Assembly (NCBI GenBank): GCA_963662175.1
Contig: OY759215.1
Location: 7,553,079-7,617,078, forward strand
Source: Aradus depressus
Lineage: Eukaryota; Arthropoda; Insecta; Hemiptera; Aradidae
Direction of reading: 5' to 3'
Length of the DNA: 64,000 bases
A model generated the notes under the pieces. The model made no database searches. It saw only the letters and a program-made list of their open reading frames with translations, and was not told the origin of the DNA. Positions within the stretch are counted from its first letter, which is position 1, and every line of letters begins with the position of its first letter. This document shows, in pieces, positions 9,268 through 55,046 of the stretch. The position numbers and the translations under genes are program-made.

Positions 9268-10616
9268 AATTGGAAGAAAGTATGTTATTGAGTATTGTGG
9301 AAATGAAAGGTTTAATTAAATTTAGTAGTATGTCAAATAGGTTTGATGAGGGGTCTTGTTCGTTGAGGTTAGTTTGATGAGGGGTGCTTGCTGGTGTCTG
9401 TGTGTGGTGTCTGCTCCGGGTAAACCAAGGGTTTGATTGAGCTCCTGAGGGGATGTTTTGCTGTGACTGTGGAGGATTTTCTGAGACTGGTTGGGGAGTA
9501 AGTCTAGATGGATTTGCATTTGTTGTGTCATGAATGTGGGTTGGTATGTGTTTTCTGTGTGTGATTCGTGATTGAAGTTTTAAGAAGGTTTCACAGCCTC
9601 TATAATTGGCGGGGTAGCTTCCACCACAGTTAGAGCACTTTGGGGACTCTTGGAGAGTACGTGATGGGCAAGCTGTGAAATGATGATCTCCTGCACACTT
9701 GACACATTTTGGGTCAAGGTGGCAGAAGTTCTTGCTATGTCCCACTTGCTGGCAATTCGTGCACTGCACAATGCGTTGACCTCTTCCGCGGTTCGACAGT
9801 CACTATAGTGTAAAAGAGACGAGATAATTGAAAAATCGCTTTCCCCTCCGGAGTATTCTGGAGCTCGACAGCACACAGTGGAGTGGGGCCTTTGTCCTTG
9901 TTCAGTAGCCTTGTTACACTGAAGACTGGGTATGTCGAGGTTAGTTCGTCTTGGATTTCGGTTTCAGTCAGAGAGTATGGAACCCCTCGGATAACAACGG
10001 AAAGTTTCCTATCCTCGGGGTTCAGGAAAGTATAGTATTTTACGTCATTTGTTTGGTAAAATTTGGTCAGTTTCCTAAAGTCTTCAGATGTCATAAGGGA
10101 TATTTTTATTTTTTTGTGGCATTTTTTTTGTTTCGAAGGGAGATGTTGTGATACTTTTAATGTCTGTCAGTACTTTTTGAAAATCGTCGGCTTCACAAAG
10201 GAAAATTGGGGGGATTTTAAGTTGTTTTTCGGTCTGTGGGGTGGTATCTTAGTGTGTTGGTCGGTGATGAGTGCTGCGAGTGGCGCGAATGTGTTGTGCG
10301 TGGGTATAGTGGAATGAATTGCGTACCTGTTCCGCTTGGGCTGGGTGTGGCTGGCCCCCGGTGAGGGCTCTCCGTCTAGCTGCATGGCTGACTCCGGGAG
10401 TGCTGGGAACTCCATGTCTTCTTCTGGGGGACAGGGTCTCTTCGGCTGGCTCACTAGTCGGGGTGAGATCGACTGATCTGGGTTACCTGTGTTGTTCAGT
10501 CGTGCTTTGAGGTTATCCGTGAGTCCATTTTTCGTGTTGACCGGTTTTTCGGTGGAGTTGATGTTGGTCCTCATTCTCACCCGTAACTTGGGTGAAAAGT
10601 AAGTAATTTTGCTCAC
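9254..10616 (-). pseudogene. LINE ORF1 (gag-like, zinc-knuckle nucleic acid-binding protein), frameshifted
   Basis: Three open pieces: 10616-10167, 10094-9735 and 9769-9254. The first is a Pro/Ser-rich N-terminus. The second contains a PRE_C2HC-type stretch (VVIRGVPYSLTETEIQDEL) typical of insect Jockey gag proteins. The third has three knuckles: CTNCQQVGHSKNFC, CVKCAGDHHFTAC and CSNCGGSYPANYRGC. At least two frameshifts separate them (around 10100-10190 and near 9750). The family role is RNA binding in the element's ribonucleoprotein. Its end overlaps the ORF2 start by about 14 bp. Confidence 0.85.
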
Positions 10617-10901: not shown

Positions 10902-11751
10902 TTAGTCATTTTTACCTATCTGCAGTTTTCCTTCGTTATTGAAGTAGTTACAAAATGTTTCCCTGACACTTTTTGCATCCTTTGATGAATTTCTATTTCC
11001 ACTGGGCTGCAAATCAGAGAAATCAAGCACTTCATCCGGTGCTGTCATTCTCCAATTCGATGCCATATAAAGCCGCGGCTGAGTTTTAAGCAAATAATTA
11101 TGTAAATAACAGCAAGTTGCCACTATGGTTGCTGCTTTTTTAACTTCAAAACATATAGCTTTTTGGAAGACTCCAAATTTATATATATATATATTTTTTT
11201 TTTTTTTTTGGTTGGGTCTTAATTTATTAGATCCCATATACCAGGGACATTTCTATTTTTTTATTTATTTATATATTTAGATCTTATTATACCAAAAGCG
11301 CCTTCAACAACTGACCTAGCTGTTGACAATCGATAGTTAAATGTAGATTGGTTAGCATTACACGCACTTTGCGGGAATGGTTTCATTAAATGTATGCCTA
11401 GTGCAAAAGCTTCGTCAGATATGAAAACATAAGGAAATGTTTCATTTGTATTTGGCAATGGTGACCAATCTGGTATATTTAATTCGCCTTTTGTAAACGT
11501 TTCCCAGATTTTGGTGTAGAATAATATACCGCCATCAGATATACGTCCATTAGCTCCAACATCTATCATTATAAAAATTGTTTGACCATTTCGAGCAAGC
11601 TATCAAAACAAGCATCTTTCTTAAGATAATAATTTTCACAATCCTCATCTTCAGTGCCTCTTATTTCACTCACTAAGTTTATATGCGTATAAACATCTCT
11701 TTTCAGTAACCATTCTTTAGCCCATCTTTTTTTTTGCAGACAATGCAGCAA
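10902..11751 (-). pseudogene. PIF/Harbinger-type transposase (DDE_Tnp_4) remnant
   Basis: Three minus-strand open pieces align with successive parts of Harbinger-type nucleases. 11751-11569 resembles the N-terminal region before the catalytic core (WAKEWLLKRD, then YYLKKDACFDSLLEM). 11569-11261 has the core: DVGANGRISDGGILF, then FISDEAFALG and the signature FNYRLSTARSVVEGAFGI. 11237-10902 has the closing CCYLHNYLL motif. The region between the first two pieces, including the first catalytic Asp, is deleted. A T/A run at 11181-11270 interrupts the end. The gene is dead, and no clear terminal repeats or duplication were found. Confidence 0.82.
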
Positions 11752-12297: not shown

Positions 12298-12310
12298 TAT
12301 AACAAGTAAT
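12298..12310. repeat. 13-bp target site duplication, left
   Basis: tataacaagtaat, repeated exactly at 13438-13450. It brackets the palindromic element. Confidence 0.9.
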
Positions 12311-12377
12311 AAAAAATTTAAAATTCTGGGGGTATTGAGGGTCAGTCAATGAAGAAAATACTATTCAAATGCCAACG

Positions 12378-12404
12378 TTTCGATATATTTCATATCATCA
12401 TCAG
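12378..12404 (-). ncRNA. Hammerhead ribozyme-like core (left arm)
   Basis: Mirror image of the 13323-13349 motif on the opposite strand, as required by the exact palindrome. Confidence 0.5.
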
Positions 12405-13322
12405 GGCCTAACAAACATGGGGGTATCAAGATTAGAAAAATATAATGGGTGATCGATTAAAATTATATATAGGTACATAAATATACATTCACTCATACAA
12501 CTCCACATAAATACAAATATACATCCTAATACATTCACATACATATACACATTGATGAACAACAAGGAAACTTACTATGAATATAGATGGTTGAGGAGAA
12601 GGCATGAAGACTGTGAGGTCTTACGTTCAACTAAGGGTACAGAAGGGTCGAGGGTAACAGATAATAAATCCGGGGAAAACCCCAGTTAACGGGACTTAAA
12701 TTTGAAGAGAACTACTTACTGGCTAACAGATATTTTACTATGTTGAGAAAAAATAAAATAAAATAAAAACTCTATAATTATATAAATAGTAACATAATTT
12801 AACTTATTAATTAAATGAAGAATTTTAGACAGAAGTGACACTAACCGAAAATGAAATAATACATGTATTATTTCATTTTCGGTTAGTGTCACTTCTGTCT
12901 AAAATTCTTCATTTAATTAATAAGTTAAATTATGTTACTATTTATATAATTATAGAGTTTTTATTTTATTTTATTTTTTCTCAACATAGTAAAATATCTG
13001 TTAGCCAGTAAGTAGTTCTCTTCAAATTTAAGTCCCGTTAACTGGGGTTTTCCCCGGATTTATTATCTGTTACCCTCGACCCTTCTGTACCCTTAGTTGA
13101 ACGTAAGACCTCACAGTCTTCATGCCTTCTCCTCAACCATCTATATTCATAGTAAGTTTCCTTGTTGTTCATCAATGTGTATATGTATGTGAATGTATTA
13201 GGATGTATATTTGTATTTATGTGGAGTTGTATGAGTGAATGTATATTTATGTACCTATATATAATTTTAATCGATCACCCATTATATTTTTCTAATCTTG
13301 ATACCCCCATGTTTGTTAGGCC

Positions 13323-13349
13323 CTGATGATGATATGAAATATATCGAAA
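13323..13349 (+). ncRNA. Hammerhead ribozyme-like core (right arm)
   Basis: CTGATGA (13323-13329), unpaired T, 5-bp stem GATAT/ATATC closing a GAAAT loop, then GAAA (13346-13349). This matches the hammerhead conserved core CUGANGA...GAAA with stem II between. The T at 13330 is an extra base against the canonical model. The cleavage-site strand was not identified. Confidence 0.5.
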
Positions 13350-13437
13350 CGTTGGCATTTGAATAGTATTTTCTTCATTGACTGACCCTCAATACCCCCA
13401 GAATTTTGAATTCTACAGTCGCTAGCAAACATCTACA

Positions 13438-13450
13438 TATAACAAGTAAT
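13438..13450. repeat. 13-bp target site duplication, right
   Basis: tataacaagtaat, identical to 12298-12310. Confidence 0.9.
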
Positions 13451-13546: not shown

Positions 13547-14143
13547 TTAATATTTGGTTGGGTACCCTTTTTGTGTAATAACATCTTTCATTCGATTCGG
13601 CATTGATGATGAAACTAATTTTTTGGTGAAATTTGGAGATATTTTACCCCACTCTTCTAATAACTTTTGTTTCAATTCGTTTTTTGAAGCAATGGTTGTT
13701 AATCGAATTTTCCTGTCGAGCTCACCCCATACGTGTTCAATTGGGTTGAGATCGGGCGATTGGGGGGGTTTCATAACTTTAGGGCAGTTATACAAAAGCC
13801 AAGTACGTACCAATTCACAGGTGTGTTTCGGATCGTTGTCTTGGTAAAAATGAAAAGTCCGTAAAATCCCAAGTTTTTCAGCACTCTTTTTCAAATTGCT
13901 CCTTAGTAATTCGGCATAAACTTTTCCAGTCATGGTGGTTTCAATGAAAACCAGTTCACCAATTCCACTAGACGCCATACACCCCCACACCATCACTGAG
14001 CCACCCCCATGTTTTACTATTGGTTTTAAATTTTTTGGATTCAGCTCCTCATTACGCCTTCTCCAAATTTTGTCGCGACTGTCGGGACTAAATATATTAA
14101 ACTTACATTCAAAAGTATTTGCTTGCAATAGAACAAACCGCAA
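13547..14143 (-). pseudogene. Tc1 transposase, C-terminal catalytic half
   Basis: Open for 198 aa. It carries KHGGGSVMVWGC, the second catalytic Asp in YQDNDPKHT and the catalytic Glu in PDLNPIEHVW, and ends YPTKY. The spacing from Asp to Glu is 33 residues where Tc1 has 34. The region that should hold the first catalytic Asp (usually in FSDES) is replaced by unrelated residues just upstream of KFNIF: the 14144-14726 insertion starts here. Without that Asp the enzyme cannot cut DNA. Confidence 0.88.
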
Positions 14144-14539
14144 TAATAAAATATTCTTGTATCTTGTAACTCTTCACAACATAAAAAGAAATCTCAGGTC
14201 ATGTAATGTCAGAAAACTAGATTTTTGTGATATGACGTTGGAAGAGAGCGACAGCAGCGCTGACCCTCGGCAGAAACCGTCCCTTCCCCCTACTCTATCC
14301 CCTCCACCTTCCCTCTAAAGAAACTAAGTACCCAATTTTTCTAATTTAAACGTTTTTTATCCGATATTTCGACAAATAAATGTTTCCAGATCATGTCCGT
14401 TTACTTCCATGTAATATATGTATACATATACTATTACTTTACTTTTGTTTATTTCCCTATACATATAATATATGTATACATAATAATATGTACTAAAAAT
14501 TTTGTAATCGTGTGAACATCAGAGATCAATTGCATGCGT

Positions 14540-14660
14540 GTGTTTATGTGAGAGCTCAAACGCTTTGATCTGACATCGTACAGGCTCATGACCATCGCTT
14601 AACATCCCATCCGAAGGACGGAGTGCTTAAGTTTATTTTACCTCGCAGATGAATGACATT
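14540..14660 (-). repeat. SINE fragment inside the Tc1 transposase gap
   Basis: tgacatcgtacaggctcatg, then the ccatcgcttaacatcccatccgaaggacg block, match the body of the SINE family on the minus strand. This is part of the foreign DNA that splits the transposase. Confidence 0.75.
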
Positions 14661-14726
14661 ACTCCAAAAAATTTCTGAATGATTCTGGAACTCTTTTGCG
14701 AAGCTCAATCTTTTTTTATATTTTTT

Positions 14727-15089
14727 TCACTCACAAACGGTTTTTGGTACTCTCCCATTATATCCTGCTTCTTTTAGAATTCTTCGAACATTTTGTGGGT
14801 GAACTTTCTTTCCCGTTTCTCTGTATACCTCGGCGACGATCTGAGGTGCACTCCTCGAGGGCTTGTTTTTAATTTTCCGGACAACGCTACACCTTTCTCG
14901 GTCGTTTAATACTCTTGGACGGCCAGAGGAAGATTTCAAATCTATCCGATCCTCGTGCTTATACCTTCGAATTACATCGGCTACGGTGCTTTTACTTCGG
15001 CCTACCATACCACCGATTTTGCGGACACTTAATCCTTTTTCATAATTAAAAATTATTATTTGTTGAACTTCAAAAGATGTTCGACCCAT
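14727..15089 (-). pseudogene. Tc1 transposase, N-terminal DNA-binding half
   Basis: 120 aa starting MGRTSFEVQQ. It has two helix-turn-helix stretches of the paired-like type (LSVRKIGGMVGRSKSTVADV, then PQIVAEVYRETGKKVHPQNV) linked by a GRPR-type basic motif (SSSGRPRVL). These bind the direct repeats in the element ends. The frame ends after NGRVPKTV, where a full protein would enter the catalytic domain. It belongs with 13547-14143. Confidence 0.88.
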
Positions 15090-15455
15090 CTTGACAGCAG
15101 GAAATACAAATAACTACTGAATGCAGTAATAGAAGGATATAAACACATTTTATTTGTTCGGTATTAGCGGTTGGTTGAGAAGGGATTAAAGATCATGATC
15201 AGAGTCGCATTTGTTTACAAAACAAACAACAGGTGTCCAGAAAATTTTGTTACGTGAATTTCTTGTCTTCAATTATTAATGCAAAATTTCCTTTTAGCTG
15301 TAAATGTTTAATTAATTGTTTTACGGCGTTTTGAAATGATTGATGATCTCGAAATTTAAAACTTTGCTTGAATTAAATATTTTGCCATATAACTATGTGT
15401 AACTGCAAAAGAAAAACAAAATTATAAATTGTCCGAAAATTTTTGTTACTGATTG

Positions 15456-16317: not shown

Positions 16318-17947
16318 CAGTGGCGTTCAAAAGTATTTGCACAAGCAATATTTTACTCATAATCATAGTAAGGGATAACTAAAAAAATCATATAACTAGG
16401 TACACAAAAACGTTATTTATTTAAGCATATATTTACGTAAAACCCGTTAATGCGAAATAAGAATACATATTTTTACAACAATTTTTCTTGAAAAAGCTCC
16501 GTTCAAAAGTATTTGCACATAATATAAAACTTGAAATAAAAATTATTATAAAATCAATAAAACAACCTATAATATTTTTAATACTTGGTATAAAGTCCAT
16601 TGGCGTCTATCACAGCCTGAAGCCTCCTTGGCATGGAATTAACTAAATTTTTTATGAAGGTAATGTCAACTTTATTCCACTCGTCCAATAAAATGTCTTT
16701 TAAATTATTTTTTTCCTTAATTTTATGTTTTCGAATGTTAAGGTCTAAATAGTTCCAAACATGTTCTATAATATTTAAGTCTGGAGATTGTGGAGGGGTT
16801 TGTAGCATCCTGGGCGCATTATAAAGAAGCCATTCTCTGGTTTTATTGGCCTTGTGTTTTGGATCATTGTCCTGTTGGAATATAAAAATATTTTCCATAT
16901 TCAATTTGATGGCACTAGCTCGGAGATTATGGCGCAAAATGTTGACGTAGGTATCAGCAGTCATGACAGATTCAATTGGGACAAGATTGCCTACCCCATT
17001 ATAAGCCACACACCCCCAGACCATCACATGACCTCCACCATGTTTTATCGTAGGTGTGACATTAAGGCGTTTAAGCTCTTTATTTGGTTTTCGCCAGATA
17101 TATTTTTTCCCGTCACTTCCAAAAACGTTAAATTTGCTCTCATCACTAAAGAGGACGCATTGCCGAAATTCCATTGGCTTGCTGAGATGGGTTTTTGCAA
17201 ATTCCAATCTATTTTCCTGTTGACCTCAGAACTGAAGGGGTTTTTCCTTGGAACTCTTCCATGAAAATCAGCTTTATAGAGCGCTCTTTTTACTGTTGAT
17301 TCACTCACACGTTTTTCACAAGTCAATTCGACCTTATTGACTAATTGCCAACCACTTGTGGATGGGTGTGCCTTTACTTCCCCTACGATATCCCTGCACT
17401 CCCGTTGTGTCTGAGCCCTTGGTCGTCCTGTTCGTTGCTTATTTAACGTATTTCCTGTCTCCTCGAACCTTTTTATGACATAACGGACTGTAGAAAAATT
17501 TAAATTTGAAATATTCCCAATTTCACGGTAGGTTTTGCCTTGGTTTCTCAATAAAATAATATTTCCCCTTACTGCCTGGGATAACTCACGTTTCTTCGGT
17601 GCCAAGTTGACTGAGACTGGATTAAAATAGTAGACTATTCTGAAGAATGTTAATCCCTAATTGAGTGAGAAAGGAAATGTAAACAAAAAGAGTAAACACA
17701 CTCAGGTATAGAATTACTGTACTAATTAAAATAACCAGTGTAATTTGTGCAAATACTTTTGAACGGAGCTTTTTCAAGAAAAATTGTTGTAAAAATATGT
17801 ATTCTTATTTCGCATTAACGGTTTTTACGTAAATATATGCATAAATAAATAACGTTTTTGTATATCTAGTTATATGATTTTTTTAGTTATCCCTTACTAT
17901 GATTATGAGTAAAATATTGCTTGTGCAAATACTTTTGAACGCCACAG
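16318..17947 (-). mobile_element. Tc1-like DNA transposon, nearly intact
   Basis: 1630 bp, flanked by TA (16316-16317 and 17948-17949). Ends are about 205-bp inverted repeats. Each has an outer and an inner direct repeat of gttcaaaagtatttgcaca: near 16325 and 16501 on the left, and their complements near 17746 and 17921 on the right. The two ends differ at only a few positions, so the element is young. It contains one transposase gene with a single frameshift. Confidence 0.93.
16578..17605 (-). pseudogene. Tc1 transposase with one frameshift
   Basis: The N-terminal frame 17605-17045 starts MAPKKRELSQ and has paired-like helix-turn-helix segments (KTYREIGNISNLNFSTVRYV) and a GRPRAQ basic motif. 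The C-terminal frame 17207-16578 has all three catalytic residues: Asp in VLFSDESKFNVF, Asp in QQDNDPKHK and Glu in NIIEHVW. There are 34 residues between the last two, the DD34E signature. The frames overlap at 17045-17207; the reading must switch near 17200, around AGGAAAATAGATTGG, so one small indel is the only visible defect. The complete protein would be about 340 residues, normal for Tc1. It cuts and pastes its own element through the IR/DR ends. Confidence 0.92.
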
Positions 17948-43145: not shown

Positions 43146-44408
43146 GTCATCTCCTTGACATTCAATCGTTTAAATTTCCTATCATGTCGATTATATTTTC
43201 TTTCAGTTAATGCGGACATAAATGACCACATTAGCAAGGTTTCCGTAGAAAATACTGAAATAGAACTGTATGATGAAATATAATTTTTTTAAAAATAGAT
43301 TTTAGAGGCGCGCAGCCTGTTGAAATATAATATATCTATATATTATAAAGATAATGATAAATACATATTATTATGTATTCCATGACGGAACTTCACGCTA
43401 GTTCAACAGTTTCATTAGTATCATTAAGACACTTTCCCGGTGGTCCGTCAAAAATGTTTACAATTAATTTTTTTTTTTCACTGAACATAATATTGTACTA
43501 CATCGCCCAAATTTCTCCGAAACGGTGCAAAATTTGTCCTTCTCCCTATGTTGAATTACTAGAAATTCATATAGACTCCTAACTCCTTCCTGGATTAGTT
43601 TCCCGACCTCCCCAAAACAAATATCCATTTGTCACCACCTTCGTTAGATCTCCTCCGTCTGATTCCCCGCTATAGTATCAGCCTGATCTCCGATGTCTTC
43701 ATCTCCAACCTCCTGCTTTCAGCCTCTCAAAGTACCTCCTAAACCTCTTCATAGTTCCCTACGCTCCAACTCACCACTGGAAATCCACCTGGTCGACTCC
43801 TAACAGACATTCTGCTCCTACGTCCAACAGCCTGTTTCTTTCCTTTCCGTTCATGACCCATCTAAACATCCCCTCGCCTTACTCCTAACACTATACAACC
43901 CCGAAACCTCAAGTCCCTAACCATCGGAATGCTCTAAGAGAAGCTCCTGTGCTGTGTGGCCTTCTGGCGTCCGAGGCTGCTTGCTGTGTGGTGACCTCCT
44001 TGTCCTTAAATCTATGTGGCTGTGAAAAATTTCGTAAATGATCAGCACCTCAGCATAAGGTCATAACTCGAGAGAAAAACAAAAAGAGGAACATAAAGCA
44101 CCGAATTAGCAAGCCATCTTCGATCTGCCTTCAATCGACGAGAAGGTGGCCACCTCCAACAGGATCCTTCTGAAGTTGGTCGTCAAGCACGCTTCACTGG
44201 AGCCCCAAAAAACATTCTCCCAATCTCTCCGTTCTTTGTCCCCCATCCAAACTTTTAGAACGCAAAAGTCACTACCAACTCTCAGATTTCCTTGTTGCCA
44301 ACATACTCCTGGATTCTTTGCAATCAGGTTCCCGACCCGAGTCAGCCTGCCTTACTGAAACTAACGGAAGACTTCCGAGGAGTACAGACAACTGACTTTG
44401 CTAGTATT

Positions 44409-44669
44409 AAATAAATAAAACAAACTTATTTTTGAAATATTGTCTATTCCACTAAAGATATATATACATATATAACTACCGGTTTCGGCTTTATACCATC
44501 GTCAGGTCTAACTTTAGTTCATAACTAGACCTGACGATGGTATAAAGCCGAAACCGGTAGTTATATATGTATATATATCTTTAGTGGAATAGACAATATT
44601 TCAAAAATAAGTTTGTTTTATTTATTTATTACAAGTTTCCACAATATGTCCGCGTTTCTCAACTTAGAA
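44409..44669. mobile_element. Palindromic element with hammerhead-like cores
   Basis: Arms 44408-44510 and 44526-44628 are complementary over about 103 bp with a 15-base loop, followed by a 41-bp asymmetric tail. A 12-bp duplication, tttgctagtatt, flanks it (44397-44408 and 44670-44681). Each arm carries CTGACGA-T-GGT-loop-GCC-GAAA pointing outward. It has the same plan as 12311-13437 but is unrelated in most of its sequence. Confidence 0.85.
44531..44553 (+). ncRNA. Hammerhead ribozyme-like core
   Basis: CTGACGA (44531-44537), unpaired T, GGT/GCC stem (one G-U pair) with ATAAA loop, GAAA (44550-44553). The mirrored copy is on the minus strand in the left arm. Confidence 0.45.
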
Positions 44670-44930
44670 TTTGCTAGTATTGTTCGACTTTTCCCAAGCA
44701 TTCAACTCCATCCTCCTCTCCAAGCTCCAAGCTGGTCAGCATCCCTCTAGCGTCCTCCTTTGACTCCAGTCCCACCTTGCGGGTCGCTCCCAGTCCGCCA
44801 GGGGTCCCATCTCTCCCTCCTTGGCCATTCCTTGTTCAAGCCTTCTCTCATTGAAACTCGCCTTCCGTGGCTCCCTTCAAATCCTCTCTGTTTCAATTTC
44901 TCTTTGCAATAATCCTCTCCCTGTAAATTT

Positions 44931-45911
44931 TAAAACTATTCAACATAAAATAATTTATAAGTAACTAATTATGATTAAAATGTTACATGTTGATCTTACT
45001 TAAAATAATGGCATATCCAATTAGGCATATGAATTTACTAATAATTCTTGGTTAACGCAGGTAAACTTGAAACAGCTATCACGTCAGAAATTTTGAATCT
45101 TATTATATTTATTTTTCAAATTTTTTTTTAACTTTCGAGGATTCTACATAAGATGTAGCATGATTTCCTTTAAAAGAACTCATTAAAATAAAACATTTTT
45201 AAATAATTGTAGCTGCTTAACGTAGGTATGTACACATTTTTATAAATGTCAAGTACATAGTAAAAAACAAAGAATATTTTAGATAATTTTATTTATTTCC
45301 TCGGCATTATTTTCTATGCGACCCTTTTATAGTTAACAACATTTAAAAAATGAATAAGTCTGCTATTATTATCTCAAATTCAAGAATTTATCGACGTATG
45401 CATTTGAAAAACTTCAGTATTACCTTCAGCTTCAATGGGGGGCCCCTTGAAAGTAGATGCCTGGGCGGTGTTTACGCCTTGGATAACTTCTACTACATAT
45501 TCAAAATGTAATTTCAATGATCAATATAATTTTTATTTCGATTGGTGGCCCTCACGTAAAGATCTAGAAATTTCAAAAAATTCTATCCATTCACAACTAT
45601 CGATTCTTTGCCATATGATGCAGTTTCTGTTTATGCGACTGTTATCTGCAAAGCTATTTTTTATTTAAAATGTTGACGTTTCCTTTGAAGCAGTTACTGA
45701 GGTCTCATTTTACTTATTATAATTTTTTGAATTATTCTATAGTGATTATACTTTTCTGAATTTCCTTAGGAAAAATTTCCTTAAATGTATGCCTTTCATA
45801 TATTTACTTATATTGTATCTTGAACTGTACAGTTCTTGATAATTTTTGTATAACTTATGGTTTTAGATAACTTTTACTTGTATGCTGTTTTAAGTAACTA
45901 ATTGTTTACAG
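44931..45911. other. No exon seen (possible MRPS31 first intron)
   Basis: AT-rich. The missing MRPS31 start exon could lie here or further upstream, but I found no ATG-to-donor segment with the right phase and a targeting-peptide composition. Confidence 0.4.
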
Positions 45912-46050
45912 GCGAATTTATGTCGACGAGAAGGTGCGAAAGTTGAGTTTAACATCGAGGTATTTCAAAAGTGATAAGGACGATGATGATTCAAAGCTGA
46001 AAAACTCAGCTGCGGACAAGCTGCATGCTCTTCTCCAGACCATTGTTCAG
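45912..46050 (+). CDS. MRPS31: MRPS31 exon (first one seen)
   Basis: 139 bp. Acceptor tgtttacag|G, donor GTTCAG|GTAATG. Reads RIYVDEKVRKLSLTSRYFKS, then an Asp-rich stretch and AADKLHALLQTIVQ. It needs two bases from the previous exon. Confidence 0.85.
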
Positions 46051-49000
46051 GTAATGTAATTATGTATATCTATATCATTTTGTGTTTTACCAAACAGAAT
46101 TTATAGTGAAAAAAAATTGTCATACCTGAGAAAAATGTGTATTTATGTTATTAAATGTTCAGTCTAAGTATCAGTCAGCAACATCGATTCAACCTCTATA
46201 ATATTTGTCTAACTAATAAACAAACTGAGGACTTATCGGACTGTTTGAGAACATGTTCCTATTGGCACCATGAACTTGTTTATTCAGTTTCAAGTGACCT
46301 GAGAAAGTTCGTTAATTTCAATGTTATATTGAAGGATTTGGGGAAAAAACATTGTTTCCGAATTTCAGATTGATAACTGAGAGTGTCCAGTATAGTGTAT
46401 TAAATTCTGATTTACTCTATAGGAACCTAAGTTTTACAGTAGTTGCATTTTGTTTCTTGTAAATGTTTGCATCTTTCTAAAATAGTTTGTTTGGTTTAAC
46501 ATAGTAGTATACTTTCAAATAGGGCAGAAAGGACGACCTTCCTACATTGTAGGTTGCTGCCTTTCTTTAGCCCTAAAATTGTCTTCAGCATCGACAGTTT
46601 TCCTCAATTCATTCACAATATTTTTTATTGAAGAGTGTAATTGCAGTCATGCTTAAAAACCAAAACCTATTTTTTATGCACCTAAAGAGTTTTTCAGTGT
46701 TGTTTGTAAGATCGTGGGTTGCCACTTTTCAATGTAATAAAAAAACAAACAAGCGGAGGGTCGAGAATTTGACACGATTTATGGAAGGCCGCCGCCAGAC
46801 AGGCTATTCTTTAATTAAATACGAATGAAAGTAAACAATTTGTTTAATATTTATATTTTCTAATTCCACAAAAAAAAAATATAAATATCGGTTTCGGCTT
46901 ACGTGGTATGATACAATTTATAAAACGACTTAATTTTGCAATTATCTCTTTGTATAGTTTTTAATAATAAATAATGCATTTTATTTTGTTATCAGGAAGG
47001 AAATGTGGAAAACGAAGCTGCGGAACATGCCTTGGCTAAGTCGGAAGTAGCACCACGCAAGAGGAAACATAAAATCGTACATGAAAAATCCAAAGAACTT
47101 GGTATCTAATGTTTATTATCATATATATAAAGCTGAAAATGTCTGTGCGTTGTACCGCTATAACTCACGAACGGCTTGATGGATTTGATTAATTTTTTTT
47201 TTAATTTGTCGTCATCGTCTGTGGAAGGTTATAGGCGTATTAGTACCTCAATATCTGGTCCATCCCAGCATCCACCCACGCAATCTTTGTAACTCAAAAA
47301 CCACTGCAATGATTAATGAGGAATCTTTTTGAATAGATAAGTTTTATCTACCGGAAGGTTAAGGTCTATTTTTTAATCAACCCCTGGTCCATCCCAGCAT
47401 CCACTCACGCAATCTTTGTAACTCGAAAACCATTGCAACGATTAATGAGAAATCTTTTTGAATAAATTAGTTTTAGCTCCAGGATGGTTGAAGTCTATGT
47501 TTTAATCAACCTGGTGGTCACAAGCGTTCTCAAGTACGCACTGGCTAGGACGTCCACTGATGCTAAGTATTCACTAGCTGTGGTTTCCGCCGTTGAATGG
47601 CGCGTACTAGCCATGGTGCCCAGGGGTCCTAAAAACTTACTAGCTGGGATGTCTGCCGTTGAAGGACTATAAGCGTTATTCTGTATGAATAATTGAAAAT
47701 TATAACATCATGAATGTACTATTGAAAAATTGAAATGGATTCGAACGAGAGATATTAGGAGAAAAGTCAAAGTTACCCGGGCAACGCCGGGTATTACTGC
47801 TAGTACATTATATATGTATTACCTAAGTTGGGGTAGGTGAGTGGGCTCTCTGATAGTCGAACTCTATCTCGGCTTCCTTCAGTCTGTATCTTGTACAGTT
47901 GTAGGCCACATTGACAGGTAGGAGCGATGACATACTGATCTTAAAACCAGTCTTGTAACAGGTCCTTCCTTTTTTTTTAGTATCTAAATACGAATGAAGA
48001 TATTCCACAAAAATGTGTAACAGTTACATATACTTTATAATTTTAATTAATTAAATAAAGTTACTGTAAAAAATAAATAAACAAAGTCCCGACTGCGAAA
48101 AAAAATTGTGAAAAGTCAATAATAGCATGTGATCTCTTGGTAACAGAACGCCAAATTCGAGAGATATACCATTGGAACAAATCATTACAACAAGCTTCAA
48201 TTATTTTCATAGATTATAAAGAAAATTTGGTAATGCGACCTCACTATATTACAGACGACATACTGGACAAGCGCACGAACATATATTTTACAAGTTTTTT
48301 AAATATTTTTTGGTGAAATCTAAAGTTAAGCTTGTGTTGCAGTGAATTGTTCTATCAGCCTTCTCTCCAATTTGGTGTTTTTTTACCTTTAAACATCATA
48401 CACAACATGCAGTATAGACTTTACACTTTTTGCTGCTTTCTTGATTATATTTGACTTTTTTTTCGTAGTTGGGTTTGTTGTTTATTTTAAATTTATTTAT
48501 TTATTATATAAAAAAAAAATAAACCTATACAATACATATATTTTTGAAATTACCTTAAGACCTTTAATTTGGTACCCCACTCGATGGGTTTTGGTGACTT
48601 TTGATTTTTAAAGTTTTGACAATGAAGCCAGTTACCGTTCCCTTTTGTTTTTGGTGGAATATCATCGTCATTCATAAGATTATGACGAAACAAATGACGT
48701 ATAAATGATTAAAGTCGGTGCAATCGTTTAGGCTCTCCGTGGCAACAAACGCATTTCGCAGTCTGGTTAAAAGTATCTAAATTTTCAGATTCACAGCTCA
48801 GATATTCCTTAATTTCAGAAGCATAATACATAGCACCTATATAAATCTGTGATGAAACTTGTGTGTGTCCCTCCTATCTCATATTCATCAGCAAGTCGGC
48901 ATACATTTTTTCGATGAAATATCAAGGGTAGAACAGAAATCCAGTCTCGTGTATGCGAATGTACTTCCTCGAAAAACTATGTATTTTTATATTTTTTTAT

Positions 49001-52000
49001 TTCTATTCATATATTTATTATTGTCATCTTTGATTTATTTCATATATGCATATATATTTGTATTTAAATCAGCACATACTATTTCAAAAATTTTCTTTTA
49101 TTTTATGAAGATTTCAATTTGAGACGAAATTGTATTTTTAATGTTTTCTATATTTTAAGAATCGTACAGGAGGGACAGGAAAAACCTCGTAGGGGCTGAA
49201 GGAAGGGTACCGTTTGGATGTAAACTGGTTGAACTTCCATTTAGTATTTGTTAAGTCGTGGCTGAAGATGGTAACAATACCGAAAGTACTTTCATATATA
49301 TATTTTGTGAAATAGACAATATTTTTTAAAAAAACGTATGTTTTTTCTTTATTTTTTAAAACAGAAATGTTTCGGTTTGCAAGTTTTTCTAACGTATATT
49401 GTAAGTATTTTTTAAACATTATTGTCTCTGATTGAAAATTGATTTGTAATTAATAATCGAAAAATGTTTAATGTAATTTCGTTGATATCGGAGATATGTG
49501 TTCATTTTCAAAACGTCTTCAGTCCAACGAAGTCATGTTTTCAAATATGTAACAAAAAATACCATACATTACTCGGGGCGCCGGTAGCTCAGTGGTATGC
49601 GTGCTTGTCTTCTGAGCTCAAGAACGTGGATTCGAAACCCGACCGAGGCCCTTAGTTTATTTTATCTGGGAGGTGAAATAAACTTAAGCACGACGTCCTT
49701 CGCATGGGACGTTAAGCGATGGTCCGGAGCCTGTACGATGTCAGGTACTCCTTAAAGACCCCTGCCCTAGATGAATAAAAATTTAGGGTAGGCAAAATTT
49801 AGGACTCCCACAGTAGAGTCGGGCTCATGTCCACCAGAGTGACGAAAGAGCGCTCTGGTAGTAGGCGATATGACCTCTTTGTTAAAGTCCGGGCATGAGT
49901 CACAAAACCTAACCTAACCTAACCTATACATTACTCTATATAGGTTTTCAACTATTTTTTTCTATTTTTCAGCAAATCCATTCTTTCCGCTGTCACAATA
50001 CGCAAACAGTAGAATATGAATATCACTAACAATGGCGAATATCCAAGAATTATTCTGACTGCTGTGCTTCCTTCCCCCACTTTAGCCACCCATGTTCTCC
50101 CTTAGTTCTACTTATCACTGATGTACTTCATATCTGAGAGAGAAGTTATCAATCAGCAGTGTACAGTCGCCGGCATCAAAGTAAAAGTCTTGTACTATAT
50201 ATTCGCCAGAGCGCATGACCTAGGTGGTCATTCATTTTATTGCCCTTCGCAAAAAAAAAAAACAAATACGATTTCTTACGTCTGAGAGCAGTAAAGATGT
50301 TGCCATTTCACTCTACCGATTGTTTCGATGCTTATTAATTAAAAATTCAAGTAATTTCTAGTTGTACTTTGAAAATTCTCGCAAGTTTCAAAAAAAGCTT
50401 GATGAGAAATGTTTTAATATTAATAATAGTCATTTAATAATTTGCAGGTGTTAAAATAGTAGAATCTGCGAAAGATATTGCCAAAAAATTGGGAGATAAA
50501 CCAGAGAAAACGGAAGCAGAGCTGTTACATCGGCTACTGGAGAAGGACACCACTCTGAAGAAGACCGTTCTGAAAGCAACTTCTGGAAACGAACTGTTGA
50601 AGTAAGGCCTATATATTCATTATAATTATTAATAACTCATAGTTATTAACTGTAATTAATTTCTTGTTATTGATTTACAATTTAGACAAAACTTTATTAA
50701 CATTTAAAAAAAAATCATATTTAACGATTTCAGTAATTGTATCTCATGATCGTGTTTTTTTTTTGTGACGCGGTCCTTGAAACGCCTTTCCAAAAATGTA
50801 TTCTTCGTCAAATTTAGGTAAAGAAAACAGGTTTTTCAGTATTCACTCTTTTTTGTCTTCTGATCAATTAATGAAATTTCGGCCTTCTCTCTAATTTGGT
50901 GTTTTGTTACCTTTATACAACATACACCACATGCAGTATAGACTTTACACTTTTTGCTGCTTTCTTGATTATATTTGATTTTTTTTTCGTAGTTGGGTTT
51001 CTTGTTTATTTGTAATTTATTTATTTATTACATAAAAAAAAATAAACCTATACAATACATATATTTTTAAAATTATCTTTCTATGACCTTTAATTTGCTT
51101 TCCCACTCGATGGGTTATACGATATATAATAGCCAGTCTGATAATCGTACTGACTTGTTCCCCTATTTTCAGTGATCTTCTGTCAAGTATGAAGGTGGAA
51201 CAAGAGGAGCCCAAACGAAGAGAACAGAAAGATGTAAAAATGTCGAGAGCTGATCAGGTGCGAGGTGCTCTCGGATCTGAGTTTTATGTGAAACGTCGGC
51301 GGACCTTCAAGGAGTAAGTTTATATCCAATAATTATTATTATTATATTGTATAAAGATTATTTTTATTGTATACTAGATGACTAGAGATATGTGTCCGAT
51401 ATTCCAAATCGGTCAGCCGTGAGAATCGACCTCTTTGATTCTTTCCAAAAATTGTTTTCCGACTCTTATCTCCATGAAAAAAAAGCGAATAATAGCACAC
51501 ATCATTTTAAGATATTTTCTTAGAAGTCTGTATTTATTTTACTCTATAGGTATAGGTTAGGTTTTATGACTCATGCCCGGGCTTTAACTACGAGGTCATA
51601 TCGCCTACTACCAGAGCTCTCTTTCGTCATTCTGCTGGACATTAGCCCGACTCCTACTGTGGGAGGCCTAAATTTTGCCTACCCTAAATTTTTATTCACC
51701 TAGGGCAGGGGTCTTTAACGAGTAACTGACATGGTACAGGCTCGGGACCATCGCTTAATGTCCCATCCGAAGGACGTCGTGATTAATTTTATTTTACCTC
51801 CCAGATAAAATAAACTAAGGGCCTCGGTCGGGTTTCGAACCCACGTTCTTGAGCTCAGAAGACTAGCACACATACCACTGAGCAACCGGCGCCCTCTTTT
51901 ACTCTATATATATATATATTATGTTTATGAAAACTGACATTATTGCAGAGATATTGTTGTGAAATAATTCTAATGAACTTGAAAGAAATAAAACTTGTTT

Positions 52001-55000
52001 ATTTATGGTATTGTCTAATTTCACCAACTATATTTACATGGGAGTACTTTCGGTATTTCTACCATCCTCAGCCAAAAGCATAAGAGATAAGACCAGTCTT
52101 ATCTCTTATGCTTTTGGCTGAGGATGGTAGAAATACCGAAAGTAATCCCATGTAAATATAGTTGGTGAAATTAGACAATACCATAAATAAACAAGTTTTA
52201 TTTCTTTCAAGTTCATTTTATGTTTACCCAAATATTTTTGTCCCGTTAATTTATAGTTGGATCTACGTATTATTCTTTTGTGTTGTGTAATGTCTCAGTT
52301 GTTATTTCAATATATTCCAAGATTTTTGAGGCGGAATCCAGTCAAATAAGGTAATATTTAATCTATTTCAGTATACGCCGGCTTCACGTGAAATATTCAG
52401 GCTTCCCGCCCACGCCATTTGACGCCGACATATTGCCTGATATTTGTATTGTTTATTTCTTATGTTATTATTCTTAGGGGATGTATGGTCGGGTATTTTT
52501 CATTCATTTTACTCTTCGCTCGGTCTGTTAGTTTAATTGCCTTGCTTAGTTTCAGTGCACCTTCTGGTGAAAGAGTGGATCTGTTCAGCGGTGAACCGTT
52601 TGATATCTTCCGTGAAGAGGCTGGACCAGGTAGCGACTCGCCTCAAGTCAATCTGCCCTTCTGGGACAAGTGCAATCAGCGAGAATTGAAGCTGCTCGTT
52701 ACACATCCACCCACCAACATCTACGAACAGTTGATCTTATGGACAGAGAGGGGTATCCTATGGAAATTACCAGTCGACAATGAACAAGGTCAACATTTGC
52801 GTATATTCTATTCACTTTCGCCTAACGTTGCTTAAATGCAACATTATTTATCCGTAGGATACCGGATTGAAGGATGTTTACTGTACAACAATATTTTTCG
52901 CTGGGGTTTGAAAAGTCAAATAATATTGGAAGAAATACCAAAACATAGTACTCCAACATACCTAGTCTATTGTGTATTTTTTTCATTTTTTCCGAGGCAG
53001 GTTTTTGGCTGGATATTTAATGTCGAAATGTTCTAAACTGTTATTTTTGCGTATATAAAGCAGCCCAGTTCTAAAAAAAAATTGTTTTAAATTTGTAAAT
53101 GTCCCTAAATATTTTGCATATATTAGATATTCAAATTATTGTGAAATCACGCTGAGTAATATATTTCTGATCCTTTTTTATATAAATTTTCAAAGTTAGT
53201 CACGTCCCATGTTGCTATATTTCACTCTCATAGGCATCTATGGCTATTGTAAAATAGAGGCCTTTTGTTACAATTGTAAAGTTATCGAAAGGTGGTGGTA
53301 ATATGATTAGAATACCAGTTATATACTGGGAGGCAGGCTTGGAATCTCCAGCGCAAATGTAACATACTCCTTTTTAAACGCTGCCATCCTCGTCTAAACT
53401 TCTTTAGGGAGTCGCCAGAAGTTATCATTTAGTATTTTCTGGTAATATTAATCCTTGAGGAAAACTAACCCAAATTCTAATTTTGACAATATGTACTAAG
53501 TTGCCACTTAGAAATATCCTAACCATTTAGGGTTTATTTTGGCAGCTGACTCTTCTAGTTAACCGTAATAGCATTTCAGAAAGTGAATCACAGGGGTCCA
53601 GGAATGGAATCAGTTTGTACCAGTATACGTAATTAGTCAAAATGTCACATCGGATTTACAATTATGAGTTTGGTATTACTTGTATGGACAGCAATCTAGA
53701 ATATCTGCTTTTCTAACCATTCTAGTTAGTTATTATGACTCATGCCCGGGCTTTAACTACGATGTCATATCGCCTCCTACCAGAGCGCTCTTTCGTCACT
53801 CCAGTGGACATGAGACCGACTCTACTGTGGGTGTCCTAATTTTTGCCTACCCTAAATTTTTATTCACCTATGGTAAGGGTCTTTGACGAGTACCTGACAT
53901 CGTAGGCTCGGGACCATCGCTTAACTTCCTATCGGAAGGACGTCGTGCTTAAGTTTATTTTACCTCTCAGATAAAATAAACTAAGGGCCTCGGGCCGGGT
54001 TTCGAACCCACGACGTTGAGCTCAGAAGGCAAGCACGCATACCACTGAGCTACCGGCGCCCTCTCTATAAAGTCGTCTATGAATCCCGGGCAATGTACTT
54101 CCCCAGCACGAATTAATCAGTTTAGTTTTTGCTTTCTCTCCAAAACCAATCGACCTTGGAATGAAATCTGGAGTCATATCGATACATTCATTGCATCGGC
54201 AGTGAGTTGGGATTTTTGAGTTGAGCCCCTGATCCCTCCCTTCCCTTCCGCCTATTTAGCTAAAAATTTAAAAGGTGTCATCCTTATGGGGTTTTGAATT
54301 TACCTATGAAATTTCGTATGAATACATTCATACAACAGCAGTTACTAGAATTGTTCTATTGAGCCTCTTCCCTTTCGCAGGTTTGGGTAAAAATCTATCT
54401 GTGATCATAATAGGGTTCTCGATGCACATACAAAATTTCATATCGACATATCTTTCTATGGGGAGTTATAGAGTTCACAGACAGACACACAGACGTCCAT
54501 TTTTGGAATCAGGGGATTGGAACACATGAAATTTTGTTGAAAACAGCACGAATTTCTGATCGATAAAATAACTTCCCCTATACTTCGTATAGCCGACTAA
54601 AAAGAGAAAAAAACTAGTGTCAACTGACTGTGTTCGAGTTATCGAGATTTTTAAACTTATTTTCTTTTCAGGATCAAATTCATGTGCTAAATGTTTTGTT
54701 AGTGTATACTAAATCGATTTGTTGTGTTGTTTGTTCAGGTCTGGAGGAAGAGAAGAAGGTCTACTTTGCGGACCACGTGTTTCTTGAACTTCACCTGGAG
54801 GATTGGTGTCCAGACAAGGGGCCTATACGTCATTTCATGGAACTGGTCTGTGTGGGACTGTCGAGGAACCACTGGCTGACAGCTGAAGAGAAGAAACAAC
54901 ACATCCTCTGGTACCGAGACTATTTCTGGGAGAGGCGGGATCTGATTCGGGAGATCGGGGCTGGGGAGGTGCGGCACTCCCCTCAGATAGCGGCCCAGTC

Positions 55001-55046
55001 TTCCCCCTCCCCTCCCCCCTCTAGTCAGCTGCAACAGTTGGACTGA
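45912..55046 (+). CDS. MRPS31: Mitochondrial small ribosomal subunit protein MRPS31 (5' end missing)
   Basis: MRPS31 is a metazoan-specific protein of the mitochondrial 28S ribosomal subunit. Exons with good borders: 45912-46050, 46996-47101, 50448-50601, 51173-51313, 52556-52788 and 54739-55046. All joins keep frame, giving about 359 residues; the human protein is 395. Recognisable parts: KLSLTSRYFKSD near the start, like the end of a targeting peptide; basic PRKRKHK; ELLHRLLEK; DLLSSMKVEQ; VDLFSG...FWDKCNQRELKL; YEQLILWTERGILWKLPVDN; and the most conserved C-terminal block KGPIRHFMELVCVGLSRNHW, LTAEEK, WYRDYFWERRDL. A Pro/Ser/Gln-rich tail ends at TGA (55044-55046). The start exon is not identified. 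Introns carry a Helitron, three SINEs and hairpin elements. Confidence 0.9.
46996..47101 (+). CDS. MRPS31: MRPS31 exon
   Basis: 106 bp. Acceptor gttatcag|GAAGG, donor CTTG|GTATCT. Encodes EGNVENEAAEHALAKSEV, then APRKRKHKIVHEKSKEL. Confidence 0.87.
47119..47803 (+). mobile_element. Non-autonomous Helitron in an MRPS31 intron
   Basis: Starts TC (47119) after A. Ends with a GC hairpin, ACCCGG-GCAACG-CCGGGT (about 47775-47792), then 7 bases and CTAG at 47800-47803, followed by T. A|T insertion, a 5' TC and a 3' hairpin plus CTRR are the Helitron hallmarks. 685 bp with no Rep/helicase. It begins only about 17 bases after the exon donor. Confidence 0.88.
47261..47517. repeat. 128-bp tandem duplication inside the Helitron
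   Basis: ggtccatcccagcatccac through tttttaatcaacc is repeated once with about 12 changes (47261-47388 and 47389-47517). Confidence 0.88.
47804..49194. other. MRPS31 intron, no exon seen
   Basis: Intronic AT-rich sequence. 48350-48595 is a dispersed repeat also found at 50870-51115. Confidence 0.5.
48350..48595 (+). repeat. Intronic direct repeat, copy 1
   Basis: gccttctctccaatttggtg ... atgcagtatagactttacac ... actcgatgggtt matches 50888-51117 at high identity. The two copies lie in different introns of the same gene, so a local duplication or two insertions of one element. Confidence 0.85.
49195..49420 (+). mobile_element. Single-arm copy of the hammerhead-like family
   Basis: CTGAAGA-T-GGTA-ACAA-TACC-GAAA at 49262-49285, followed by a tail (gtgaaatagacaatatttt, then T-rich) like the arm ends of the palindromes at 44408 and 51972. 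No opposing arm, so this is a monomer or half-element. Confidence 0.6.
49262..49285 (+). ncRNA. Hammerhead ribozyme-like core
   Basis: Core CTGAAGA, unpaired T, 4-bp stem GGTA/TACC with ACAA loop, GAAA. Confidence 0.5.
49575..49925 (+). repeat. Full-length tRNA-derived SINE with CCTAA tail
   Basis: 351 bp. The head has A box tagctcagtggt and B box ggattcgaaaccc, RNA polymerase III promoter elements of a tRNA. The body follows (gacgttaagcgatggtc, tagatgaataaaaatttagg, agagcgctctggtagtaggc). The 3' end is aacctaacctaacctaacct. An 11-bp duplication, atacattactc, flanks it (49564-49574 and 49926-49936). This is the youngest and most complete copy here and the reference for the family. Confidence 0.95.
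50280..50370. mobile_element. hAT-like MITE fragment
   Basis: cagtaaagatgttgccatttc, then taccgattgtttcgatgc, resembles hAT termini and matches 31624-31700. Confidence 0.4.
50448..50601 (+). CDS. MRPS31: MRPS31 exon
   Basis: 154 bp. Acceptor tttgcag|GTG, donor TTGAA|GTAAGG. Encodes GVKIVESAKDIAKKLGDK, then EAELLHRLLEKDTTLKKTVL. Confidence 0.9.
50870..51117 (+). repeat. Intronic direct repeat, copy 2
   Basis: Partner of 48350-48595. It ends about 55 bases before the next MRPS31 exon. Confidence 0.85.
51173..51313 (+). CDS. MRPS31: MRPS31 exon
   Basis: 141 bp. Acceptor attttcag|T, donor AAGGA|GTAAGT. Encodes DLLSSMKVEQEEPKRREQ, then VRGALGSEFYVKRRRTF. Confidence 0.9.
51549..51896 (-). repeat. 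Full-length SINE, minus strand
   Basis: Flanked by the 12-bp duplication ttttactctata (51537-51548 and 51897-51908). The tail complement aggttaggtttt at the left again shows the CCTAA motif. B box complement gggtttcgaaccc near 51829. Confidence 0.93.
51972..52217. mobile_element. Palindromic element with hammerhead-like cores
   Basis: Arms 51972-52093 and 52096-52217 are complementary over 122 bp with about one mismatch and a 2-base centre. Each carries CTGAGGA-T-GGTA-GAAA-TACC-GAAA pointing outward. The arm ends (ttgtctaatttcaccaac, aacttgtttatttatgg) parallel the ends at 44408. No clear target duplication was found. It lies in an MRPS31 intron. Confidence 0.85.
52118..52141 (+). ncRNA. Hammerhead ribozyme-like core
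   Basis: CTGAGGA (52118-52124), unpaired T, GGTA/TACC stem with GAAA loop, GAAA (52138-52141). Confidence 0.5.
52556..52788 (+). CDS. MRPS31: MRPS31 exon
   Basis: 233 bp. Acceptor gtttcag|T, donor CAAG|GTCAAC (a weak donor, but it gives the conserved DNEQG-L join). Encodes APSGERVDLFSG, then LPFWDKCNQRELKLLVTHPP and IYEQLILWTERGILWKL. Confidence 0.92.
52789..53700. other. MRPS31 intron, no exon seen
   Basis: AT-rich intron with short chance open frames. No element recognised. Confidence 0.5.
53725..54065 (-). repeat. SINE copy, minus strand, in an MRPS31 intron
   Basis: Starts ttagttattatgactcatgc, carries the ggtttcgaacccacg B box complement and ends gagctaccggcgccctct. No CCTAA tail on this copy; no clear target duplication. 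Confidence 0.88.
54070..54515. repeat. Degenerate dispersed repeat in an MRPS31 intron
   Basis: atgtacttccccagcacgaatt, ccaaaaccaatcgacctt and repeated gaaatttc(g/a)tat...gatacattcat phrases, closing with cacagacagacacacagacg. The same family as 38195-38420. Confidence 0.5.
54739..55046 (+). CDS. MRPS31: MRPS31 terminal exon
   Basis: 308 bp. Acceptor ttgttcag|GT, stop TGA at 55044-55046. Holds the family's most conserved block, HVFLELHLEDW then GPIRHFMELVCVGLSRN and HILWYRDYFWERRDL. The low-complexity Pro/Ser tail is specific to this gene. AATAAA overlaps the bases right after the stop (55047-55052), so polyadenylation probably uses a later signal. Confidence 0.94.

Follow-up and report, generated by a model that had tools for sequence, protein, structure and literature searches.

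What are the short hairpin motifs that recur in a 64,000-nucleotide stretch of the Aradus depressus genome, and how did several of them come to lie in palindromes? The stretch (NCBI GenBank assembly GCA_963662175.1, contig OY759215.1, forward-strand positions 7,553,079 to 7,617,078; hereafter the window, numbered from its first letter) contains repeated copies of CTGANGA followed by one extra T, a stem-loop and GAAA. A first-pass annotation of the bare sequence had placed this layout at 13323, 44531, 49262 and 52118, with three of the four copies in palindromes whose ends face outward; the positions proved exact, the layout was recovered in a scan set against 200 shuffles, and 3' ends do face out at three loci. 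We propose that the copies are very probably short insertions of an endonuclease-type Penelope-like element (PLE), namely of its pseudo-long terminal repeat (pLTR), each with the hammerhead ribozyme retained by PLEs in the region where their open reading frame (ORF) begins. The assignment is indirect, resting on anatomy and not on protein.

Both strands were scanned for CTGANGA, zero or one extra base, a stem of at least 3 bp with a loop of 3-10 nt, and GAAA; all window copies described here come from this 64-kb stretch alone. The scan returned eight matches, as compared with a mean of 0.2 and a maximum of 2 in 200 dinucleotide shuffles of the window. Seven carry one extra T and lie at four loci, their cores starting at 13323(+), 12404(-), 44531(+), 44505(-), 49262(+), 52118(+) and 52071(-); we refer to these seven as arms. 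The remaining match, at 50555(+), has no extra base, lies by reading within coding sequence and is most likely due to chance. All seven arms possess the CUGANGA and GAA core, and in all seven stem II (3-6 bp) follows directly on the extra T and opens with a G-C pair; at 44531 it consists of two G-C pairs and one U-G pair.

What follows the core makes it a well-supported reading, on sequence grounds, that the motif is a hammerhead whose stem III, starting with A15.1-U16.1, would form only between two RNAs. Directly after GAA, six of the seven arms display a perfect palindrome (ACGT at 13323 and 12404, ACCGGT at 44531 and 44505, AGTACT at 49262 and 52071). After the palindrome comes a base other than G at position 17 (T, A, T or C; 6/7 arms) and then 3-4 bases that pair with those 5' of CTGANGA (GCC/GGC, GAC/GUU, GUGG/UCAU, UGG/CCA), with one G-U pair in GAC/GUU and two in GUGG/UCAU. 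The full dimer model is satisfied by six of seven arms and at all four loci, against one match in total in 400 shuffled windows. For palindromes by themselves, the base rate after GAAA in the window is 91/1091 for 4-nt and 26/1091 for 6-nt ones, elements included. A dimer arrangement that completes the three-way junction, on which the first-pass annotation had made a hammerhead reading depend, was therefore found, and we consider this reading sequence-supported because every one of the four loci possesses a palindromic stem III, position 17 and stem I.

The individual copies can be laid out part by part. The right-arm hammerhead at 13320-13356 (plus strand) comprises stem I (GCC 13320-13322 with GGC 13354-13356), the core CTGATGA (13323-13329), the extra T (13330), the stem II hairpin (13331-13345), GAA (13346-13348), ACGT as stem III (13349-13352) and a T at position 17 (13353); its mirror copy in the left arm occupies 12371-12407 on the minus strand, with the core starting at 12404. 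At 44528-44562 (plus strand, right arm) the core (44531-44537), extra T (44538) and stem II (44539-44549) are followed by GAA (44550-44552), ACCGGT (44553-44558), an A at position 17 (44559) and the GTT (44560-44562) that pairs with GAC in stem I; the left-arm mirror copy lies at 44474-44508 on the minus strand (core start 44505). The single, non-palindromic copy at 49258-49295 (plus strand) has its core at 49262-49268, extra T at 49269, stem II at 49270-49281, GAA at 49282-49284, AGTACT at 49285-49290, a T at position 17 (49291) and stem I formed by GTGG and TCAT (49292-49295). At the last locus the intact dimer-type hammerhead is the left-arm one (52039-52074, minus strand), with core 52071-52065, extra T 52064, AGTACT 52048-52043, C at position 17 (52042) and stem I TGG/CCA; the right arm carries a hammerhead-like motif (52118-52149, plus strand) with a broken stem III palindrome, AGTAAT, at 52141-52146.

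Three of the loci, 44531, 49262 and 52118, share descent (z of 10.6-13.6 in pairwise comparison against shuffles), and 13323 is far more distant from them (z 2.2-5.3). Stems I, II and III vary in sequence across the families with pairing retained. The covariation suggested by the first-pass annotation stands to that extent, in that pairing is kept while the stem sequences differ; neither the paired arms of a palindrome nor kin loci count as independent, and covariation within the window amounts to about three independent stem sequences.

The head-to-head palindromes in the DNA are not the ribozyme dimer, because a transcript of either strand carries one sense ribozyme together with its own complement. 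For catalysis as a dimer, two copies in the sense orientation are required, either on separate transcripts or in a tandem. A transcript of the palindrome would be expected to fold as a long hairpin that hides the ribozyme; any active dimers would have to be supplied by other copies, whether tandem or single, the one at 49262 for instance.

Three of the four loci are palindromic insertions, with 3' ends outermost. The largest is a near-perfect head-to-head palindrome at 12315-13412, with arms of 549 nt each (12315-12863 and 12864-13412), a single mismatch at offset 544 and no spacer. The second, at 44409-44627, has arms 44409-44510 and 44526-44627 around a 15-nt unique centre and lies within duplications; the palindrome as scanned extends over 44401-44510 and 44526-44635, identical up to offset 102 on either side of the 15-nt spacer. 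The third (51972-52217) has arms of 122 nt each (51972-52093 and 52096-52217) with one mismatch and a 2-nt spacer. Two of them are flanked by clear target-site duplications: TATAACAAGTAAT (13 bp; left copy 12298-12310, separated from the arm by the four further bases 12311-12314, right copy 13438-13450) and TTTGCTAGTATT (12 bp; 44397-44408 and 44670-44681). At the third, TTATGTTTA is a possible but weak duplication of 9 bp (51919-51927 and 52218-52226), the right copy of which begins exactly at the arm end. Among 2979 pairs of random window segments, a 13-mer is shared by chance in 0.27%, a 12-mer in 0.47% and a 9-mer in 8%. The duplications contain 11/13, 9/12 and 8/9 A+T, in a window with 65% A+T.

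Between arm and duplication lies a one-sided tail: about 25 nt on the right arm at 13413-13437 (plus strand), 42 nt on the right arm at 44628-44669 (plus strand), and 44 nt on the left arm at 51928-51971 (minus strand), the last being dependent on the weak TTATGTTTA duplication. Counted from the A of the ATG in CTGANG-ATG, the two arm ends of the three palindromic loci fall at +84/+109, +91/+133 and +94/+138. There is further a related copy at 46815-46900 (minus strand), seemingly cut within stem II and thus 5'-truncated, which still has its GCC-GAAACCG terminus and, downstream, the TGGAATTAGA block; this truncated relative and the non-palindromic copy at 49262 fit a retroelement. For the latter copy, a duplication search at the locus did not find the insertion ends.

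This anatomy closely resembles that of known PLEs of the Penelope/Poseidon type. In Penelope of Adineta vaga, according to PMC3846280, inverted pLTRs are mostly head-to-head with palindromic junctions, several copies have duplications of 8-10 bp and others none, and an optional 31-bp tail occurs at the 3' end of one inverted pLTR, which includes the first 12 ORF codons, or 22 with the tail. Pen2a of that species and the insertions described here have in common the head-to-head pLTRs, palindromic junction, short duplications and one-sided tail; the duplication is 9 bp and the tail 31 bp in Pen2a, whereas here they measure 13, 12 and perhaps 9 bp, and 25-44 nt, respectively. The anole PLE, PAc, offers a second comparison. 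Its hammerhead overlaps the beginning of the ORF and has its cleavage site 26 bp downstream of the start codon (PMC11167929). Reverse transcription begins 111-118 bp inside the ORF, the tail corresponds to the sequence separating two start points, and cutting and extension affect the two strands of the DNA alike. The cut predicted here would fall 23-25 nt past the ATG of CTGANG-ATG, and the insertions end at +84 to +94 and +109 to +138 from it. Unlike Pen2a and PAc, the copies in the window contain no ORF and are only pLTR-sized pieces.

The hammerhead system is likewise of a known kind, PLE hammerheads acting as dimers having been described already. Minimal hammerheads in PLEs are reportedly the subject of work by Cervera and de la Pena (2014) and by Lunse, Weinberg and Breaker (2017). 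The type I layout, the short or absent helix III and the place relative to the ORF start are shared with the minimal dimer-type hammerheads of PLEs; the extra T after A9, present here in 7/7 arms, may set the window copies apart. For PLE pLTRs and animal genomes, two reports describe dispersed type I hammerheads in which helix III is short or absent and for which cleavage as a dimer was proposed (PMC7761336; PMC6155905). Hammerheads of Aedes aegypti, another insect, can also pair through stem/loop III between two molecules, with a dimeric stem given as 10 bp (PMC3088659), in contrast to 4 or 6 nt here.

From these parallels a mechanism can be proposed. The PLE RNA would carry the motif and, as a monomer without stem III, would pair through the palindrome after GAA with a second sense RNA or a tandem copy. 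Each partner would supply the cleavage strand of the other, with the RNA severed 3' of position 17; the sequence supports such a fold, from which the cleavage is predicted. The PLE protein would cut AT-rich target DNA and start reverse transcription at one of two places inside the RNA, some 84-94 and 109-138 nt downstream of the ATG; here the ends are read directly, and the anole PLE provides the mechanism. cDNA from both cut ends, joined at the far ends, would leave a head-to-head palindrome flanked by a duplicated target, with a one-sided tail. We infer such two-sided priming from palindromes whose structure is itself directly visible. The extra T after A9, constant throughout, would be a tolerated core insertion (U10) and not a new fold.

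The authors of the 2013 Adineta paper preferred self-priming, with an antisense strand as template, and asked for more experiments (PMC3846280). Our arm ends speak rather for two separate starts of reverse transcription than for self-copying of one cDNA (three cases, one of them with a weak duplication), because copying of one arm would give tails on both or a random stop, yet the shorter arm ends at +84 to +94. A model with two starts would also agree with the extension of both strands in PAc.

Several observations weigh against these assignments. As to the hammerhead, the arm at 52118 fails the model, its palindrome lost to AGTAAT, and the minimum of unconstrained cofolding is not the hammerhead dimer in any of the four segments (minimum free energies between -22.0 and -26.8 kcal/mol for the dimers and between -10.4 and -13.8 kcal/mol for one planar hammerhead core, figures that are not directly comparable). 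In the copy at 49262 a 12-nt palindrome, GAAAGTACTTTC at 49282-49293, overlaps the ribozyme core, and its pairing could compete with the core and trap dimers in an inactive form. No Rfam hammerhead model matched, either in the whole window at gathering thresholds or in 44300-52300 at E up to 10; this does not exclude a hammerhead fold, because 11 complete hammerheads that bear the extra T escape the models as well (see below). As to the PLE, the tails of different copies are not significantly similar (best 30 of 500 shuffles), none of the 51 stop-to-stop window ORFs of at least 90 aa has a GIY-YIG match in Pfam, and the only reverse transcriptase (RT) in the window (7114-8145) adjoins an endonuclease of the type found in long interspersed nuclear elements (LINEs). 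Absence of a telomerase-like RT and GIY-YIG from the window is expected for solo or truncated pLTR copies. The frame from the ATG of CTGANG-ATG stops after 2, 2, 15 and 14 codons at the four loci, for which reason this ATG is not a working ORF start in these copies. Lastly, cleavage by the ribozyme of the anole PLE took place only when protein was present, hammerhead mutants inserted normally and RNA-seq showed no ends at the cut site (PMC11167929).

The anole results lend themselves to another account, in which the motif is kept as an RNA structure of the PLE for protein binding or positioning of the RT, with self-cleavage lost or irrelevant in these copies. The stem III broken in one of seven arms is in line with this, but core, palindrome, non-G position 17 and stem I are retained at four loci, and simple protein binding does not obviously need all of them; we consider this account unlikely, if the most serious competitor. 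A lesser chance still is given to a separate non-autonomous element, a retrozyme or one resembling a short interspersed nuclear element (SINE), that carries a hammerhead and is mobilised in trans by a PLE or LINE. Window ORFs of at least 90 aa include no PLE coding sequence, and animal retrozymes are described as carrying type I hammerheads and co-occurring with PLEs (PMC7229834; PMC7761336); retrozymes are presented as tandem repeats of 150-450 bp, whereas the inverted pairs and one-sided tail seen here are PLE anatomy, and minimal dimer-type motifs are reported for PLEs (PMC7761336).

Two further explanations are both highly improbable in our view. Some groups of DNA transposons form palindromes with duplications of similar length, and the copies might be fold-back transposons (of miniature inverted-repeat or Foldback type) with an incidental hammerhead-like motif; against this, the arms vary (549, 102 and 122 nt) as do the duplication lengths, the tail is one-sided, and truncated and single-arm copies exist. 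That the palindromes are artefacts of assembly or library preparation is suggested by the 549-nt near-perfect spacerless one, a known artefact form. Yet the inversion ends at the element ends, inside a duplicated target and with a tail on one side, where a fold-back chimera would also copy host flank, and the other two palindromes have spacers of 15 and 2 nt. We retain the PLE assignment as much the most probable one. MicroRNA precursors were also considered and rejected: the miRNA matches in 44300-52300 all score below gathering thresholds, the stronger ones lying on the long palindromes.

Does the extra T define a variant class of hammerhead, as the first-pass annotation ventured? It does not. 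A nucleotide inserted between A9 and G10.1 has a precedent in chrysanthemum chlorotic mottle viroid (CChMVd), and viral contigs contain complete three-way hammerheads with this very T. The extra T is thus a variation that the hammerhead core tolerates and that recurs, and not a class peculiar to the window. The plus-strand hammerhead of CChMVd has one extra nucleotide in exactly the same place, naturally an A in the viroid and a U here. In the mutagenesis of this A10, a change to U made the trans-cleaving ribozyme 3-4-fold faster and C or G were harmful (PMC3705267). The idea that the T is a relic of a PLE start codon (CTGANG-ATG), appealing in view of an anole ORF that begins at stem II, was rejected, given that the frame stops within 2-15 codons and that phage ribozymes share the T in different genomes; such a relic is possible for an autonomous ancestor.

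Viral contigs were scanned with three patterns (extra T; extra A, C or G; no extra base), at least 120 stretches each. Motifs with three stems were kept if they had stem II of at least 3 bp, stem III of at least 3 bp starting with A-U, a position 17 other than G and stem I of at least 4 bp. The 362 loci comprised 120 from the T scan, 120 from the A/C/G scan, 108 new ones from the scan with no extra base and 14 others, including prokaryote stretches from genome contigs. At least 148 distinct complete hammerheads were found among them, of which 116 have no extra base, 28 a T, two an A, two a G and none a C; the patterns are unequal (CCGAAA as against CCGAAAC) and biased, and these counts are not frequencies. 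Before removal of duplicates, the T scan had yielded at least 27 with T, eight with no extra base and one with G, the A/C/G scan at least 31 with none, two with A, one with G and one with T, the third scan at least 82 with none, and the other loci one with T. Mononucleotide-shuffled versions of 120 loci (1.1 Mb) out of an earlier set of 134 contained no complete hammerhead. Across the 28 cases with the extra T, pair types change freely in stem I, in the inner pairs of stem II and in most of stem III; pattern and filter leave little or no freedom to the first two stem II pairs and the A-U pair. With the window's own stem III in the pattern, the viral contigs gave one stretch for the ending CCGAAACCGGT and none for CCGAAAGTACT; genome contigs gave 13 prokaryote stretches.

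The excess of U fits the viroid mutagenesis, where U is fastest, and the equal numbers with A and with G do not; both extra-G motifs, however, sit within G runs, where the pairing might be another. Rfam models (E up to 5) recovered all five neighbours with no extra base that were checked, two in locus L063 and one in L068 as Hammerhead_1 (28-32 bits, gathering threshold 34) and, weakly, those in L031 (RAGATH-1-hammerhead, E 1.9) and L032 (HH9, E 0.53). At the same setting none of 11 hammerheads with the extra T (in L020, L067, L052, L063, L068, L031 and L032) was reported as a hammerhead. We tentatively suggest that U10 hammerheads may be a recurrent natural sub-variant common to animal PLEs and bacteriophages and overlooked by current covariance models, a proposal to which we give somewhat less than even weight. 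Phage terminase genes are carried by L020 and L063. The titles and opening lines found in the literature do not describe an extra-U variant, though searching aimed at the extra nucleotide was slight. Several complete hammerheads can share one viral contig, as in L020 (4071, 5101 and 5840) and L063 (8180, 8482 and 9873) and also in L048 and L067; in L063, forms that have the extra U stand beside forms that lack it, and Rfam reports only those that lack it.

The surroundings of the copies hold other features. By reading, and for the earlier exons by eye, the copy at 49262 and the palindrome at 51972-52217 are flanked by exons of a gene for mitochondrial ribosomal protein S31; two ORFs, at 52392-52832 and 54618-55043, give matches to Pfam PF15433. 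A repeat of about 340 nt forms an inverted pair (49576-49916 and 51553-51894, 92-94% identical) with a tRNA-like start and a AACCTAACCTAACC end, and looks like a tRNA-derived SINE from its sequence. A duplicate of about 230 nt (48355-48590 and 50879-51116, 89-96% identity) is spaced 2.5 kb apart, and a 129-nt unit is present in two tandem copies at 47233-47490, 83% identical. Minus-strand pieces at 7114-9315, 11264-11599, 13550-15113 and 16581-17656 include LINE-type RT and endonuclease, a DDE_Tnp_4 fragment and pieces of Tc1/mariner-type transposase.

The copies in A. depressus form an unusually readable record of PLE insertion, if our assignment is right: three head-to-head pairs, with two clear duplications and a weak one, each with one arm ending some 90 nt and its partner 109-138 nt beyond the common ATG, and this bears on the question left by the 2013 Adineta paper. 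The extra-T hammerheads for their part expose a gap in ribozyme annotation, where a tolerated one-base insertion in the core hides complete ribozymes from standard models.

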